A stretch of 64,000 bases of DNA. Origin: Thermus neutrinimicus. GTDB taxonomy: Bacteria > Deinococcota > Deinococci > Deinococcales > Thermaceae. The notes under the pieces are model-generated. The model did not search any database. It saw only the letters and a program-made list of their open reading frames with translations, and had not been told where the DNA came from. The stretch is taken from contig NZ_JAKTNU010000012.1 in assembly GCF_022760955.1 (NCBI RefSeq), positions 1 through 64,000 of the forward strand, in the 5' to 3' direction. The position numbers were made by a program, and so were the translations under genes. Shown here in pieces: positions 27,214-56,443 of the stretch; position 1 is the first letter of the stretch, and each line of letters opens with the position of its first letter.

Positions 27214-27819
27214 CTAGCTTAGCCCAAAGCGCTCCTTGATCCGGGACAAAACCCCCCTTAACCCCTCTTCCAGCTCCTCAACCCCTCCCCGGTTCTCCAA
27301 AACCCAGGTGGCCCGCCTCCTCTTCTCCTCCTCGGGCATCTGGGCCCTTTCCCGGGCCAGGACCTCCTCCGGCGAAAGCCCGGAGCGCGCCACCACCCGC
27401 CTCACCCGCTCCTCCACAGGGGCCGCCACCAAAAGGGTCCCATCCAGACGGGCTTCCCAACCCTTCTCAAAAAGAAGGGGGATTTCCAGGAAAACCAGGG
27501 GGGCCTGGATCCTGCCCAACTCCTCGGCCAACAGCCTCCGCACCTCGGGGTGGAGGAGGTCCTCGAGGGCCCTTAGCCTTTCCGGGTGGGAAAAGACCAG
27601 CTGGGCCAGCACCCTGCGGTCCAGTTCCTCGCCGGCAAAGGCCTCGGGGAAAAGCCGCTTAAGCTCCGCCTTCTTGTTCTCCCTGGCCCTTGCGGCCAGC
27701 TCGTCCAGGTCCAGGACCGGGTAGCCCCAGGACCTGAGGAGGGCGGCCACCGTGCTCTTGCCGCTTCCGATGTTCCCGGTAATGCCGATAATGATGGGGT
27801 GCTTCGCCCTATCGCCCAT
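27214..27819 (-). CDS. coaE: Dephospho-CoA kinase
   Basis: A 201-residue P-loop kinase: [12 protein letters not shown] near 13-24, DLDELAARA near 38 (substrate-binding Asp), and [10 protein letters not shown] near 110, all typical of CoaE. It phosphorylates dephospho-CoA to CoA, the last step of CoA synthesis. It heads the minus-strand group coaE-SDR-sufE-plsY. A TATAAA box (complement of 27833-27838) lies 13 bases before the ATG. Confidence 0.95.
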
Positions 27820-29115
27820 AGGGACTTCCCCTTTTATACCCCCAAGGGGGCCATCCCCGTGGGGGGTGTCCTAAGGGACCTCCTTCTGGGAAGGAGGCCC
27901 CAGGACCTGGACTTCGTGGCAGAGGACCCGAGGAAGGCGGCAGAGGATGCCCAAAACCACCTGGGGGGCACCCTTTTCCCCTTGGACGAGGAACGGGGCC
28001 AGTACCGCCTGGTGGCGGGTGGCCTTGTCCTGGACTTCTCCCCCTTAGAGGGCAGCCTGGAGGAGGACCTCCTCAAGCGGGACTTCCGCCTAAATGCGCT
28101 TATCTGGAGGCAAAACCGCATCCTTGGTATCCCAGGGGCGGGAGGGGATCTCTCCAAGAGGGTGCTGGTTCCCGTACGGGAGGCCAATTTCTACCAGGAC
28201 CACCTGCGAAGCCTCCGCGCGGTGCGCCTGGCCGCCAGCCTGGGCCTTGGCCTGCCCGGGGAAACCCGAAAAGCCCTTTCCCGCCATGCCCGCTTCCTCC
28301 AGGACCACCTCGAGGCCCTTCCCGCCCGGGAGCGGGTGAAGGAGGAACTGATCCGACTCCTCCTTTCCCCAAGGGCAACCTGGGGCCTTCATCTTTTGGA
28401 GCGCACGGGCCTTTTGGACCTCTACCTCCCCGAGCTCCGCCCCCTGGTGGGCCTTAAGCAGGGGGGCGTCCATCATCTGGATGGCTGGCAGCACACCCTC
28501 TCCGTGGTCCTCCACCTGGTCTGGCTTTGGCCCGAGGCCCCCTTGGAGGCCCGGCTGGCCGCCCTGTACCACGACGTGGGCAAGCCCTTAACCCGCCGCT
28601 TTGACCCCCAGGTGGGCCGCTTCCGCTTCCTGGGGCATGCGGAGGTGGGGGCGGAGATGGCCAAGGCTGCCCTCCTTTGGCTCCGTTTTCCCAAGGAGGC
28701 CGTGGAAAAGGTGGAGGCTTTGGTGCGTCGCCACATGGACCGGTTACCAGACGAGGCCAAAGCCCTCCGGCGCTTTCTCTTCCGCCGAAAGGACCTTCTG
28801 CCCCACCTGGTTTACCTCATGGCCGCAGACCGCCTGGGCACAAGGGGGGTGGAGGAGGAGGCCTGGGGGGTCTTGGAAGCCTACCAAAAGGCCTTATCCC
28901 AGCCCCTGCCCACCCGTCCCCTCCTTTCCGGGGAGGAGGTGATGGCCCTCCTTTCCCTAAGGCCCGGCCCCCTGGTGGGGAAGGCCCTGGAAGCCCTCCT
29001 CTTGGCCCAGGTGGAGGGAAGGGTTACGACCCCAGAAGAGGCCAAGGCCTTTCTCCTATATTGGAAGGGCCATGGAGCGGATACGCCTGCGGGAACCCCA
29101 GATCACCCCTATTGA
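27799..29115 (+). CDS. tRNA nucleotidyltransferase / poly(A) polymerase family protein with HD domain
   Basis: A class II nucleotidyltransferase. Head motif VGGVLRDLLLGRRPQDLDFV contains the catalytic Asp pair, RDFRLNALIW is motif B, and QDHLRSLRAVRL carries the Asp and Arg that read incoming bases in CCA enzymes. A C-terminal HD phosphohydrolase domain shows HHLDGWQHT and LYHDVGK. It should add or repair tRNA 3' CCA ends (CC-, A- or CCA-adding cannot be separated here). Start uncertain: GTG at 27799 overlaps coaE antisense by 21 bases but keeps the GAIPVGG context; GTG at 27859 has AAGGGGG upstream. Confidence 0.82.
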   Translation: MLRPIAHRDFPFYTPKGAIPVGGVLRDLLLGRRPQDLDFVAEDPRKAAEDAQNHLGGTLFPLDEERGQYRLVAGGLVLDFSPLEGSLEEDLLKRDFRLNALIWRQNRILGIPGAGGDLSKRVLVPVREANFYQDHLRSLRAVRLAASLGLGLPGETRKALSRHARFLQDHLEALPARERVKEELIRLLLSPRATWGLHLLERTGLLDLYLPELRPLVGLKQGGVHHLDGWQHTLSVVLHLVWLWPEAPLEARLAALYHDVGKPLTRRFDPQVGRFRFLGHAEVGAEMAKAALLWLRFPKEAVEKVEALVRRHMDRLPDEAKALRRFLFRRKDLLPHLVYLMAADRLGTRGVEEEAWGVLEAYQKALSQPLPTRPLLSGEEVMALLSLRPGPLVGKALEALLLAQVEGRVTTPEEAKAFLLYWKGHGADTPAGTPDHPY

Positions 29116-30202
29116 GGGGGGGTTCCTGGTTTCCGACCCCTACGGGGTCTTCCCCAAACCCCTGGCCCTTACGGAAGGAGGGCTTTTCCTCCTCTCCCTC
29201 CTGGAGGGACGCACCCTGGAGGAAGTGCAGGAGGAGGTATTCAAAACCCACGGGGTGCTGGTACCTAAGAAGGAGCTGGAGGAGCTGGTCAAGGCCCTGG
29301 AGGAGGCCGGACTGCTCCTTACCGAGGAGGTGGAGAGGCGGCTTAAGGAGGAAGAGGACAAGCTGAAAAAGGAGCGCCCCATGCGCCTGGCAGGGCTTTC
29401 CTACCCCCAAGGGGAACGGGAGGCCCGGGCCTTCCTCCAGGCCTTCCGGGCCAGCTTCCCGGGGCCAAGGCCCCAAGGGGACCCCTCCATCCTCCTGCTT
29501 CCCCATCTGGAGCCGAGCCGGGTGCCCGAGGCCTACGGAGCCGCCCTGGCAGCCTTGGAGGGCATACCGGAACCCGAGCGGGTCTACCTGGTGGGGGTGG
29601 CCCACCGGCCCCTGAGGGAGAAGGCCGCCGCCCTCCCCGTTCCCTTCCAAACTCCCTTTGGCCCCGCGGAGCCCGACCTTGCCGCCCTGCAGGCCCTGGA
29701 CGCCCTCCTGCCCTACGAGCTCTTCAACACCCCCCTGGCCTTCCGGGAGGAGCACAGCCTGGAGCTACCCCTTTTCTTCCTCAAGGGAGCCTTTCCCCAG
29801 GCTAAGCTCCTCCCCCTCCTGGTGGGCCGCGGGAGCCTCGAGCTGGGGGAGGCCCTGAGGGTGGTCCTTAAGGACCATCCCGGCCTTCTGGTCCTGGCGG
29901 TGGACCTCTCCCACGTGGGGCCCCGCTTCGGCGACCAACCCCTTTCCCGCTCCCTGGCGGAGGAGGCCCGGAGGCGGGACCTGGGCTTTTTGGAAAGGCT
30001 CGCCCAGGGAGAGCCGGAGGCCGCCCTGGCCTTCCTGGGGGGAAATCCCACCCGCGTGGACGCCGTGGAGGTGGTGAAAAGCCTAGCCCCCCTCCTCACC
30101 GCCCAGCGGGGCCAGGTCCTGGCCTACCGCCTGGACCTCGAGGCCCCCACCCTCTCCGCCGTGGGGGCCGGCACCCTGGTCTTCCCCGCCCCTCCCGCCT
30201 AG
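29072..30202 (+). CDS. MEMO1-family protein with N-terminal PqqD-like domain (AmmeMemoRadiSam protein B)
   Basis: A 376-residue two-domain protein. Residues 1-90 form a PqqD-like winged helix (ITPIEGGFLVSDPYG... followed by an amphipathic, Glu/Lys-rich helix). Residues 105-370 are a MEMO1 fold with LLLPHLEPSR, VGVAHRP, EEHSLELPLFFLK and VDLSHVGPRFG, which hold the usual His/Asp site of this dioxygenase-like fold. The partner AMMECR1 and radical-SAM genes of the three-part system are not adjacent. The ATG overlaps the previous gene by 44 bases. Function is unknown; the PqqD part suggests peptide binding. Confidence 0.85.
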   Translation: MERIRLREPQITPIEGGFLVSDPYGVFPKPLALTEGGLFLLSLLEGRTLEEVQEEVFKTHGVLVPKKELEELVKALEEAGLLLTEEVERRLKEEEDKLKKERPMRLAGLSYPQGEREARAFLQAFRASFPGPRPQGDPSILLLPHLEPSRVPEAYGAALAALEGIPEPERVYLVGVAHRPLREKAAALPVPFQTPFGPAEPDLAALQALDALLPYELFNTPLAFREEHSLELPLFFLKGAFPQAKLLPLLVGRGSLELGEALRVVLKDHPGLLVLAVDLSHVGPRFGDQPLSRSLAEEARRRDLGFLERLAQGEPEAALAFLGGNPTRVDAVEVVKSLAPLLTAQRGQVLAYRLDLEAPTLSAVGAGTLVFPAPPA

Positions 30203-30302: not shown

Positions 30303-32555
30303 TCAGCGGCGCCTGCGCCGCCTCTTGGCCCTGGTCTTCACCGGGCGGTGCACCCCGGCCTTCTCCTCCCTGGGAGCCCACTCGCCGAAGTACACGGTGT
30401 TCACCGTGGCCCTTTCAGGCCGGCTGTCGCGGCTTTTATCCGTAGGCGGTCCTACCACCTTGCGCATTTCTACCTCCTTTGCCTTCTTCACCAGGGTTTT
30501 CCCCCTGGAAGATTCCCTCTTTTCCCCCTCCCGGTAGGGCAGGAGGTCGATCTGCCGAAGCCTGGGGTTGGCGGCGGCGATCACCACCTCCATCTCGTCC
30601 CCCAGGCGGATCCTCTTGCCCTTGGGACCCAAAAGGGCCAGGGCCTCCTCGCTGTAGCTGTAAGGGCCCAGGGCCTCGAGGCGCACCAGACCCTCCACCC
30701 CGTTTTTCAGCGTGACAAAGGCGCCAAAGCTGGCCACCCCGGTCACCTTGCCCAGGAAACGCTCCCCCAGGTGGAGCTCCGCCCACTTGGCCATGTAGTA
30801 CTTGGTGAGCTCCCGCTCCGCCGCCTCCGCCTTCCTCTCCATCTCCGAGGCGTGCTCGGCCATGGCGGGGAAGGTTTCCAGCCAGCGGGCCTTTTTGGCC
30901 GGGGTGAGGGTGCGCCGAAGGATGGCCTTTAGCACCCGGTGCACCACCAGATCCGGATAGCGGCGGATGGGGCTCGTGAAGTGCAGGTAGTGCTCCATGG
31001 CCAGGCCGAAATGCCCCAGGTTCTCGGCAGCGTACCGGGCCAGGCGCAAGGAGCGCAGGACCAGGTTGGCCACCACGGGCTCCTCGGGGCGGCCCTTGGC
31101 CTCGAGGAGGACCCGTTGCAAGGCCTTGGAGGAGAGCTTCTCCGGCAGGGTATACCCCAGCCGGGCCAAGGCCAGGCGGAGCTTTCCGTAGGCCTCCTCC
31201 AGGGGCTCCTCGTGCACCCGGAAAAGCCCGGGAAGCCCCTTGTTCACCAGGTGCTCGGCCACCACCCGATTGGCCAGGAGCATGAGCTCCTCGATAAGGC
31301 TACGCGCCTTAGCCTCCTCCTGGGGGATGAGGTGGAGGGTGCCCTCCTCCACCTCCACCTTCACCTCGGGGAAGGAGAAGTCCAGGGACCCCGCCTCGAG
31401 GCGCCTTTGCCTGAGCCTTTGGGTAAGGTCCAGGAGAAGGCTTAGATCCTCCGCCAAAAAGGCGTGCTCCTCGGGCAGTCCGAAGCCCTCGGCGAAGGCC
31501 TCCACCTCCGTGTAGGTCATCCGGGCCACGCTGCGGATAACCCCCTCGGCAAAGCGCACCCGCCTCACCCTAAGGTCCTCGTCCAGCTCCACCAGCACGG
31601 AGAGGACCAGCCGGTCCTCATGGGGCCTCAGGGAGCACACCCCGTTGGAAAGCCTCTCGGGGAGCATGGGCAGGACCCGCCCCGGCAGGTAGACGCTGGT
31701 GCCCCTTAGGAAGGCCTCCTGGTCCAGGGCGCTACCCTCCTTGACGTAGTGGGACACGTCGGCGATGTGCACCCCGACGCGGTACCCCTTGGAAAGGCGC
31801 TCCACGTGGATGGCGTCGTCAAAGTCCTTGGCGTCCACCCCGTCGATGGTGAAGACCCGGAGGCCCCGGAAGTCCTGCCGCCTCCTAAGCTCTGCCTCGG
31901 GGATCTCCAGGGGAATGGCCTCCGCCTCCCTTAGCACCTCCTGGGGAAACTCGGCCCTTAGGCCGTACTTGGCGATCACCGCCTCGGTTTCCGTCTCCGG
32001 GGCGTCCCCCTCCCCCAGGTACTCCAAAAACTCCCCGTAAGGGCGCCGGCCATAGTGAACCTTCGCCACGATCCGGCTTCCCCGCTTAAGGCCGTGGAGC
32101 CCCTCGGGAAGAAGCCTGAGCTCGGGCAGGCCCGGCTCATCGGGCAAGAGGACCGCATACCCCTTGCGGAAATCCAGGGTACCCACCACCCGTTCCCGGG
32201 CCCGCTTTAGCACCCGCTCCACCACCCCCCAGGGCTTCCCGTCCCGGCCAGGGGGCATGACGCGGGCCTCCACCAGGTCGCCGGGCCAGGCATCCTGGGT
32301 GTAGCCGGGCGGGATGAAAAGGTCCTTTTCGGGAAGGCGCACAAAGCCATACCCGTCCCGGTGGAGGCTGATGGGCCCCTGCACCCGGGCGGGGAGGAAG
32401 TACTGGCTTCCCCTCTTCTCCAACAGCCCTTCCCGCACCAGGGCCTTAAGGTAGGCCTTGGCCTCCCGCTTTTCCAGCCCAAAGCGCCTTAGGATCTCCT
32501 CCAGGCGGTGGGGCTTGCCGGTCCTTTTGAAAAACTCCAGTAAGGTTTCCCGCAT
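30303..32555 (-). CDS. rnr: Ribonuclease R
   Basis: A 750-residue RNase II/R family exoribonuclease. It has a winged-helix start (residues 1-60), two cold-shock domains, the RNB catalytic core with TIDGVDAKDFDDAIHVE near 265 (metal-binding Asp residues), HFTSPIRRYPDLVVHR near 555, an S1 domain near 620-700 (GKVTGVASFGAFV), and a very basic Arg/Lys tail ending RAKRRRRRR. It degrades structured RNA 3'-5'; in other bacteria it assists tmRNA quality control. The start MRETLLEFF was chosen over a longer antisense-like extension; it lies 1 base after the aminotransferase stop. Confidence 0.95.
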   Translation of the reverse strand: MRETLLEFFKRTGKPHRLEEILRRFGLEKREAKAYLKALVREGLLEKRGSQYFLPARVQGPISLHRDGYGFVRLPEKDLFIPPGYTQDAWPGDLVEARVMPPGRDGKPWGVVERVLKRARERVVGTLDFRKGYAVLLPDEPGLPELRLLPEGLHGLKRGSRIVAKVHYGRRPYGEFLEYLGEGDAPETETEAVIAKYGLRAEFPQEVLREAEAIPLEIPEAELRRRQDFRGLRVFTIDGVDAKDFDDAIHVERLSKGYRVGVHIADVSHYVKEGSALDQEAFLRGTSVYLPGRVLPMLPERLSNGVCSLRPHEDRLVLSVLVELDEDLRVRRVRFAEGVIRSVARMTYTEVEAFAEGFGLPEEHAFLAEDLSLLLDLTQRLRQRRLEAGSLDFSFPEVKVEVEEGTLHLIPQEEAKARSLIEELMLLANRVVAEHLVNKGLPGLFRVHEEPLEEAYGKLRLALARLGYTLPEKLSSKALQRVLLEAKGRPEEPVVANLVLRSLRLARYAAENLGHFGLAMEHYLHFTSPIRRYPDLVVHRVLKAILRRTLTPAKKARWLETFPAMAEHASEMERKAEAAERELTKYYMAKWAELHLGERFLGKVTGVASFGAFVTLKNGVEGLVRLEALGPYSYSEEALALLGPKGKRIRLGDEMEVVIAAANPRLRQIDLLPYREGEKRESSRGKTLVKKAKEVEMRKVVGPPTDKSRDSRPERATVNTVYFGEWAPREEKAGVHRPVKTRAKRRRRRR

Positions 32556-32556
32556 T

Positions 32557-33801
32557 CTAACCCAAGAGGCCTTCCAGGGCCTTCTCCGTGGCCTTAAGGC
32601 TCTCCGAGAAGGCCGAAAGGGCCTCGTCCACGTGCTCCTTGCCGATGATGAGGGGGGGCTCGAGGCGCACCACCTTGGGGTTATTGAGCCCAAAGGCGGT
32701 GATCACTCCCCTCTCCGCCAGCTCCGCCACCACCAAGGCGCCGATGTCCGCATCGGCGAACTCCACACCCAGCATGAGACCCCGGCCCCGCACGTCCGCC
32801 ATGAGGTGAGGATACTGGGCCTTAAGCCCCTTGAGCCCCGCCATCAGGTACTCCCCCATCTCCAGGGCCCTTTGCGGCAGGTTCTCCTCCAGGGTGACCT
32901 CTATGGCCGCCAAGGCCGCCGCCGCCGCCAGGGGGTTACCCCCAAAGGTGGAGGAGTGGAAGAGGGGGTTTTGCCGGAAGATCTCAAAGATCTCCCTCCG
33001 GCCCACGCAGGCCCCAATGGGCATCACCCCGCCCCCTAAGGCCTTGGCCAGGGTCATGAGGTCGGGGGCCACCCCCTCCCAGTCCACCCCAAAGAGCCTC
33101 CCCGTGCGCCCCAGGCCGGTCTGCACCTCGTCGGCGATCATGAGGACGCCCCTTGCCCGCGTAAGCTCCCGCACCCCCTTCAGGTAGCCCTGCGGGGGCA
33201 CCCGGATCCCCCCTTCCCCCTGGATGGGCTCCACGATCACCGCGGCGGTCTCCCCGTCTATGGCGGCCTCCAGGGCCTCGAGGTCCCCATAGGGCACCGC
33301 CTTCACCCCGGGGAGAAGGGGCTTGGCCGGATCCTGATACTCGGGCTTGGGGGTAAGGGAAAGGGCCCCCATGGTCTTGCCGTGGAACCCCCCATGGGTG
33401 GTGACGATGCCCGGCTTGCCCGTGTAGGCCCGCGCCAGCTTGATGGCGGCCTCCACCGCCTCCGCCCCGGAGTTGCCGAAGAAGACCATTTCCAGGCCTT
33501 CGGGGGTGATCTCCGCCAGTTTCGCCGCAAGCCTCGCCGTGGGCTCGGAAACCAGGACCCGCACGGACATGGGCATGCGCTCAAGCTGGGCCCTAACCGC
33601 CGCCAGCACCTTGGGGTGGCGGTGGCCCAGGTTCAAGGTGCCGTACAGGCCCAAAAAGTCCAGGTAGCGCTTGCCCGTGGTGTCCCAGACGTAAGGGCCT
33701 TCCGCATGGGACTCTACCCGGTCCAAACCGGTGAAGCGCAACAACCCTGCCAAGCCGGGATTGATGTGCCGCTCAAAAAGCGTGAAGGGGTCGTGGCTCA
33801 T
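32557..33801 (-). CDS. Class III aminotransferase (ornithine/putrescine type)
   Basis: About 414 residues, fold-type I PLP enzyme. Motifs: NSGAEAVEAAIKLAR (phosphate binding), ADEVQTGLGRTG near 225 and the PLP Lys in LAKALGGGVMPIGA near 255. It resembles putrescine and acetylornithine/ornithine aminotransferases. The ERHINPGLAGLLRF opening favours the putrescine/ornithine subgroup, so a role in polyamine or arginine metabolism is likely but not fixed. A GTG two codons upstream is an alternative start. A TAGCAT box 7 bases before the ATG can drive a leaderless mRNA. Confidence 0.85.
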   Translation of the reverse strand: MSHDPFTLFERHINPGLAGLLRFTGLDRVESHAEGPYVWDTTGKRYLDFLGLYGTLNLGHRHPKVLAAVRAQLERMPMSVRVLVSEPTARLAAKLAEITPEGLEMVFFGNSGAEAVEAAIKLARAYTGKPGIVTTHGGFHGKTMGALSLTPKPEYQDPAKPLLPGVKAVPYGDLEALEAAIDGETAAVIVEPIQGEGGIRVPPQGYLKGVRELTRARGVLMIADEVQTGLGRTGRLFGVDWEGVAPDLMTLAKALGGGVMPIGACVGRREIFEIFRQNPLFHSSTFGGNPLAAAAALAAIEVTLEENLPQRALEMGEYLMAGLKGLKAQYPHLMADVRGRGLMLGVEFADADIGALVVAELAERGVITAFGLNNPKVVRLEPPLIIGKEHVDEALSAFSESLKATEKALEGLLG

Positions 33802-56066: not shown

Positions 56067-56072
56067 CCCTTT

Positions 56073-56443
56073 GGTGGAGGTGGGGGGAGTTGAACCCCCG
56101 TCCGAAAGTCCCTACGGCAGGCCTCTACGCGCGTAGTCCGCGTTTAGGGTGTCCCCCTGGCTTGGCCCGCGGACGGGCGGCCAGGGGCAAGCCCCGCTTG
56201 GCTTCGCCTTGGGTTACGGGGCCTAGCCAAGGCTAGCCGGGTTTGTGTCCCCGCTACCGTGAGCCCCCGGCAGGGCTACCGGGCGGGGTCGCGGGCCTAA
56301 GCCGCGAGAGCGTAAGCAGGCTTGTTGGCCTTTATTCGTTTGCGGGTTTTTACGGTCAGCCCCCTCAGGGGCTACCTTCGAGGCCACCCGCACCTCGGCG
56401 CGCCACCTGCCCTCGGCGACCCCCGTCGAGACCGTTCACCCCC
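56073..56443 (-). ncRNA. ssrA: Transfer-messenger RNA (tmRNA)
   Basis: A 371-base RNA on the minus strand. The 5' end GGGGGTGAACGGTCTCGACG and 3' end GACGGGGGTTCAACTCCCCC...CCTCCACCA form the tRNA-like domain with encoded CCA. The tag reading frame (complement of 56297-56329) is GCC AAC AAG CCT GCT TAC GCT CTC GCG GCT TAG, giving A-N-K-P-A-Y-A-L-A-A. The YALAA end matches the T. thermophilus tag, but the front differs. The body carries the expected pseudoknots (GC-rich GCCCGTCCGCGGGC block). It rescues stalled ribosomes with SmpB. Confidence 0.96.

Follow-up and report, generated by a model that had tools for sequence, protein, structure and literature searches.

A MEMO protein with a predicted RRE/PqqD-fold domain, encoded beside a tRNA nucleotidyltransferase gene in Thermus and inherited apart from the radical SAM gene

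MEMO proteins form an ancient, iron-binding family that is also present in humans and for which no reaction is known (cited part of PMC11081632), and bacterial MEMO genes have so far been read mostly through the AMMECR1-radical SAM system. The window analyzed here, a 64,000-nucleotide stretch of DNA from Thermus neutrinimicus, carries a MEMO gene that raises two questions: does it belong to that system, and, if it does not, on what might its product act? A first-pass annotation of the DNA had described the product as a MEMO protein fused to a PqqD-like peptide-binding domain, standing alone after a tRNA nucleotidyltransferase gene, and had taken it for a piece of a three-part AMMECR1-MEMO-radical SAM system whose partner was missing nearby. 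The genes and signals concerned are as follows (window coordinates).

27214..27819, minus strand: coaE, divergent neighbor, conserved beside the nucleotidyltransferase gene
27799..29115, plus strand: HD-domain tRNA nucleotidyltransferase, probably CC-adding (PF01743, PF12627, HD)
29063..29068, plus strand: GGAAGG, Shine-Dalgarno-like, within the nucleotidyltransferase gene (read directly)
29072..29115, plus strand: 44 nt shared by the 3' end of the nucleotidyltransferase gene and the 5' end of RRE-MEMO
29072..30202, plus strand: RRE-MEMO fusion gene, 376 aa (open reading frame; PF01875 and TIGR04336 above cut-off; purifying selection)
30303..32693, minus strand: RNase R-type gene, convergent (bounds of the open reading frame as listed)

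The open reading frame at 29072-30202 (+) was confirmed as a real gene. Its dN/dS of approximately 0.15-0.21 (Jukes-Cantor, against five other Thermus) indicates purifying selection, and the constraint on the RRE part is close to that on the MEMO part. Its position was as first described, namely directly after the nucleotidyltransferase gene, with which it overlaps by 44 nt, and with no radical SAM gene next to it. The GTG start of the nucleotidyltransferase gene at 27799 was picked by comparing relatives, and a purine run similar to GGAAGG is found in most Thermus relatives. The convergent RNase R-type gene limits the unit to two genes, and a gene for a precursor peptide would not fit into it, as the two genes overlap and the gap to the convergent gene is 100 bp; among the neighbors (nucleotidyltransferase, coaE and RNase R-type gene) there is no gene of RiPP type. 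The genome encodes a second nucleotidyltransferase (G000:C14, 825 aa), whose N-terminal half is that of the A-adding enzyme and which scores 367 bits with NF041569, below the cut-off of 1440. Split CC- and A-adding enzymes have been described (cited part of PMC7014341), and by analogy the enzyme in the window is probably the CC-adding one. The C-terminal tail of this enzyme was also considered as a peptide that the RRE domain might grip, a candidate that found no support, the tail past the conserved part varying in both length and sequence; its last conserved aromatics fall on the Shine-Dalgarno-like stretch of RRE-MEMO, so that their conservation needs no peptide binding.

The protein divides into three parts:

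29072..29323, plus strand: N-terminal RRE/PqqD-fold domain, residues 1-84 (AlphaFold2 pLDDT 88.9; Foldseek and VIA-align to RREs and PqqD)
29324..29380, plus strand: charged linker helix, residues 85-103 (helix 85-101 in AlphaFold2 models)
29381..30181, plus strand: MEMO domain, residues 104-370 (Pfam; VIA-align to MEMO1 7kq8)

The N-terminal domain was said to be PqqD-like, and this holds by fold, not by sequence, as the PqqD profile PF05402 matches the window protein below cut-off (E 0.18; 12.6 bits against 23.4). None of 30 relatives reaches that cut-off, and seven of them give weak matches (best E 0.057). Many RREs are missed by this profile, according to the cited part of PMC7470986. The AlphaFold2 model of the full-length protein was of middling quality (mean pLDDT 72.2, pTM 0.69), with block means of 45-66 over residues 1-90, and residues 1-106 were predicted alone with ten Thermus sequences, giving a best model, out of five, with a pLDDT of 88.9 (others 51.6-85.9). 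In this model three strands are followed by three helices and then by the linker helix, the same order as in the RREs and PqqD (TbiB1 5v1v, 6jx3, 5sxy), which match over the full length of the predicted domain. In a Foldseek search of the PDB, the 12 top-ranking rows were all RREs (6jx3 at E 0.0099; no row reaching E 0.001). VIA-align placed the lasso-peptide RRE 6jx3 at Z 10.1 over 81 residues, 5v1v at Z 9.4, TigE at Z 9.0 and PqqD 5sxy at Z 7.5 over 80 residues, and with the full-length model 5v1v and 6jx3 reached Z 10.7 and 10.2, respectively. Winged-helix matches rank lower (MINA53 Z 7.4, NO66 Z 5.2). On the predicted model, the domain is thus of RRE/PqqD type at the level of fold, and the structural part of the earlier assignment stands. 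The two ribosomal oxygenases, in which an iron-oxygenase domain is combined with an RRE-like winged helix, are only weakly similar to RRE-MEMO and serve as an analogy only; their catalytic domain is JmjC, not MEMO.

For the MEMO domain, PF01875 matches the window protein at 185.7 bits (E 1.2e-54; cut-off 27) and matches 30/30 relatives, while TIGR04336 gives 68.9 bits (cut-off 26). Human MEMO1 is found by Foldseek at E 2.5e-10 and by profile at E 6.5e-7, and VIA-align superimposes MEMO1 7kq8 at Z 23.3 (rmsd 3.1, 255 residues). With residue equivalents derived from the PDB chain numbering of MEMO1, the pocket reads as follows.

29504..29506, plus strand: H145 codon, equivalent to MEMO1 metal ligand H49 (36/36 distinct copies; PDB MEMO1 alignment)
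29603..29605, plus strand: H178 codon, equivalent to MEMO1 metal ligand H81 (36/36; PDB MEMO1 alignment)
29753..29755, plus strand: H228 codon, EHSLE motif, MEMO1 H131 (36/36; PDB alignment)
29903..29914, plus strand: D278-H281 codons, DLSH motif, MEMO1 D189 and H192 (D278 and H281 36/36; PDB alignment)
30044..30061, plus strand: NPTRVD, surrounding the position at which the Cys ligand (MEMO1 C244) is lost (N325, T327 and D330 36/36)

Shared with human MEMO1 and the family at large are the fold, the two metal-binding His residues and the EHS[LIV]E and D[LF][SC]H motifs, and H145, H178, H228, D278, H281, N325, T327 and D330 are invariant among the 36 distinct RRE-MEMO sequences. What sets the group apart, besides the extra N-terminal domain, the invariant N325, T327 and D330, and PHLE in place of PHAG, is the loss of the third ligand: around the position equivalent to MEMO1 C244, no Cys occurs in any of the 36 sequences; 34 of them have no Cys at all, and the other two have a single Cys elsewhere. 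An ACG motif occupies this place in 21/21 sequences of the short MEMO type described below. As to what replaces the Cys, MAFFT sets T327 opposite it, hhalign aligns the stretch poorly, and the helix position in the model suits N325-T327. Human MEMO1 binds iron through H49, H81 and C244, and its C244S variant binds none (cited part of PMC11081632), so that metal binding by RRE-MEMO may be gone. RRE-MEMO is therefore a MEMO-fold relative without the canonical metal site, with both His ligands present and the Cys gone, and its pocket can be argued in two directions: conservation of the His/Asp set speaks for a functional site, and loss of the Cys for metal binding that is altered or absent.

The search for partners in the rest of the genome turned up the radical SAM gene and no match to AMMECR1. 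The radical SAM gene lies on another contig (C1) and scores 360.7 bits with TIGR04337, the AmmeMemoRadiSam family profile (cut-off 220). It stands directly before a second MEMO gene (G000:C1:243005-243766, minus strand), which is of the canonical short type with the metal-binding Cys. The pair (G000:C1:243005-244770; L003, L015) was also seen in 21 other Thermus, without AMMECR1, which profile searches found in 0/27 Thermus genomes and which adjoins the pair in ten genomes of family f4. In a tree of 57 MEMO domains, rooted at midpoint for drawing only, the window type (36 rows) and the short type (21 rows) form separate clades, each with 100/100 support, and a very long branch lies between them.

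We surveyed 111 Deinococcota genomes, among which matches numbered 42 for PF01875, 40 for TIGR04337 above cut-off and 11 for AMMECR1. RRE-MEMO, typed by score except in G056 and G068, where position beside the nucleotidyltransferase gene was used instead, is present in 38 of these genomes, i.e. 27/27 Thermus, G071 and ten of family f4; the genomes are related, and such presence and absence counts are not independent events. Judged by position, it is next to the radical SAM gene in none of the 38. Thirty of them have a radical SAM match above cut-off, in every case with another MEMO match next to it. The remaining eight (G054, G058, G060, G061, G065, G071, G009 and G013) have no such radical SAM match, and none has an intact short MEMO gene. 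We set G013 aside, since its AMMECR1 match ends 4 bases from a contig end and the other two genes are perhaps unassembled, leaving seven genomes, one of which (G009) is a single contig. In G060 (L104 3935-4546) a deletion has fused the first part of the radical SAM gene with the last part of the short MEMO gene, leaving a 203-aa remnant, and RRE-MEMO is intact. Three genomes (G014, G015 and G022) have the short MEMO, with RRE-MEMO and any close nucleotidyltransferase match both missing; as these genomes are 76-85% complete, we read the absences as missing contigs. Radical SAM gene and short MEMO gene are thus retained or lost as a pair, and RRE-MEMO does not follow them; its persistence in seven genomes missing both shows that it is inherited independently of the pair. 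The proposed membership of a three-part system and the idea of a missing partner both fall on these observations, the radical SAM gene having a short MEMO of its own, AMMECR1 having no match in the 27 Thermus genomes, and the seven genomes keeping RRE-MEMO without a radical SAM match or an intact short MEMO. Outside the survey, a scan of contigs from named genomes, limited to close relatives, placed 10/10 RRE-MEMO relatives in Thermus; tblastn found no relatives in plasmids, and none was confirmed in viral contigs.

The linkage that does persist is that with the nucleotidyltransferase gene, which immediately precedes RRE-MEMO in the same orientation in 37 of the 38 genomes, including lineages whose RRE-MEMO is only 42-51% identical to the window protein. 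In most loci the likely start of RRE-MEMO falls 17-47 nt inside the nucleotidyltransferase gene, the exceptions being L040 (5-nt gap) and L061 (7-nt gap or 17-nt overlap, depending on the start chosen); L014/L020 are frameshifted, with no readable start. The same-strand overlap is retained in both families that carry RRE-MEMO. In G062 (L106 2500-6392), about 4 kb of metal ABC transporter-like genes, found in this genome only and resembling by eye a metal-binding protein, an ATPase and two permeases, lie between the two genes, both of which are open. Two g2 genomes have a nucleotidyltransferase (46-47% identical) and no RRE-MEMO; together with the separation in G062, this means that the link is not obligatory. 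Moreover, coaE is divergent from the nucleotidyltransferase gene in lineages with and without RRE-MEMO, and adjacency alone is modest evidence, as the coaE pairing is conserved more widely still.

Similarity of fold does not show a function. We tentatively favor, as a reading somewhat more apt to be wrong than right, an RRE-guided MEMO-fold enzyme that acts on a translation-related client, with both substrate and chemistry inferred. The RRE fold argues for the gripping of an extended peptide, and the gene pair with the nucleotidyltransferase for a client in translation. In such a mechanism, the RRE domain would hold a protein partner by a stretch of extended peptide, and this stretch, or the partner's cargo, would be presented to the MEMO pocket, where a metal may be coordinated by H145, H178 and, as a new third ligand, a residue near N325-D330. 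The reaction would be tied to tRNA 3'-end maturation or to another step of translation, and a translation protein, possibly the nucleotidyltransferase itself, would be a more likely client than a secreted peptide. A peptide or ribosomal substrate, as suggested earlier, is a possible candidate. It counts against this explanation that no peptide, precursor or partner of RRE-MEMO was identified. A narrower form of it, in which the RRE directs a MEMO enzyme that lacks the Cys and has a new metal site to the CC-adding nucleotidyltransferase or to a client bound to tRNA, is distinctly unlikely; if true, a module for peptide recognition known chiefly from RiPP biosynthesis would work in tRNA 3'-end maturation or quality control, and a stand-alone bacterial MEMO protein would have its first defined task.

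The main rival to an RRE-guided enzyme is a non-catalytic accessory, unlikely in our estimate yet to be reckoned with, in which the winged helix binds tRNA or the nucleotidyltransferase, the Cys-less pocket is vestigial, and the protein regulates or scaffolds tRNA 3'-end addition. The missing Cys (36/36) and the adjoining tRNA enzyme (37/38) would fit such a protein, as would the resemblance of RREs to nucleic-acid-binding winged helices (cited part of PMC7470986) and the lower-ranking winged-helix matches in VIA-align. However, the invariance of both His ligands, H228, D278 and H281 goes beyond the needs of a dead pocket, and the closest fold matches are peptide-binding RREs rather than nucleic-acid binders. 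We consider it improbable that the gene order was inherited by chance and that the function is unrelated to tRNA, since the adjacency (37/38) and the same-strand overlap in both carrier families weigh against this, even though the conserved order of coaE and nucleotidyltransferase, the separation tolerated in G062 and the nucleotidyltransferases of other lineages that lack RRE-MEMO all speak in its favor. A role as maturation enzyme for an unrecognized RiPP, with the precursor gene elsewhere in the genome, would account for the predicted N-terminal RRE fold and for the surfacing of RRE-Memo fusions in RiPP genome mining (cited part of PMC12710340), but appears quite improbable for a gene that has been conserved by descent through two families beside a housekeeping neighbor, in a unit with neither a RiPP-type gene nor, in the overlap or the 100-bp gap, space for a precursor. 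Finally, that RRE-MEMO serves the genome's AmmeMemoRadiSam-type system as a second MEMO subunit, acting in trans together with the radical SAM enzyme of contig C1, is highly improbable and already largely refuted by distribution, for although TIGR04336 is above cut-off and the genome also carries the radical SAM gene, that gene has an adjacent MEMO of its own, RRE-MEMO persists in the seven genomes (including single-contig G009) missing both, and the two MEMO types are separate, fully supported clades.

With regard to known families, RRE-MEMO scores above cut-off for AmmeMemoRadiSam system protein B (TIGR04336), the name that an automatic pipeline would probably assign and a misleading one for a group that is unlinked to AMMECR1 and the radical SAM gene and inherited independently of them. 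The PCAD-Memo classification of Burroughs et al. 2019 reportedly splits Memo into several families, of which the RRE-MEMO group may be one. RREs and PqqD differ from the domain described here in that all 30 relatives fall below the PF05402 cut-off and in that no precursor peptide or RiPP gene is adjacent. The 'recently-described Memo-Ammecr1 systems' are mentioned, citing Burroughs et al. 2019, in a 2020 paper (cited part of PMC7159879). The fusion itself we do not claim as new, since the same domain pair is mentioned by Bregman et al. 2025 (PMC12710340), the cited part of which notes, in one sentence, Memo-like proteins among RRE fusions 'unprecedented in RiPPs'; the fusion is given there without organism, tRNA gene neighborhood, Cys loss or relation to radical SAM, and Thermus and tRNA nucleotidyltransferase have 0 occurrences in the main text. 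In the literature on Memo/AMMECR1/radical SAM, RREs and CC-adding enzymes, we found no description of the linkage to the nucleotidyltransferase gene, of the missing Cys ligand or of inheritance independent of the radical SAM/short MEMO pair; within the searchable literature these three features appear to be new. As a lineage that parts the MEMO domain from the AMMECR1-radical SAM system, RRE-MEMO offers a concrete, testable handle on what this domain can do, in the genetically tractable genus Thermus.

Several further observations concern the radical SAM family and the window. Six f5 genomes (G075, G076, G077, G079, G080 and G101) have a radical SAM match above cut-off and no MEMO match. In two of them (G075, L101 4577-5758; G079, L102 4134-5393), the TIGR04337 radical SAM proteins have an N-terminal Tat-type signal-like sequence, judged by eye. 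In G083, the radical SAM gene (L100 4922-6034; TIGR04337 601.5 bits) and the MEMO gene (L057 2971-3828) are far apart, and both are unlike the rest of the phylum. Elsewhere in the window, a tmRNA gene at 56072-56443 (minus strand) encodes the tag ANKPAYALAA.
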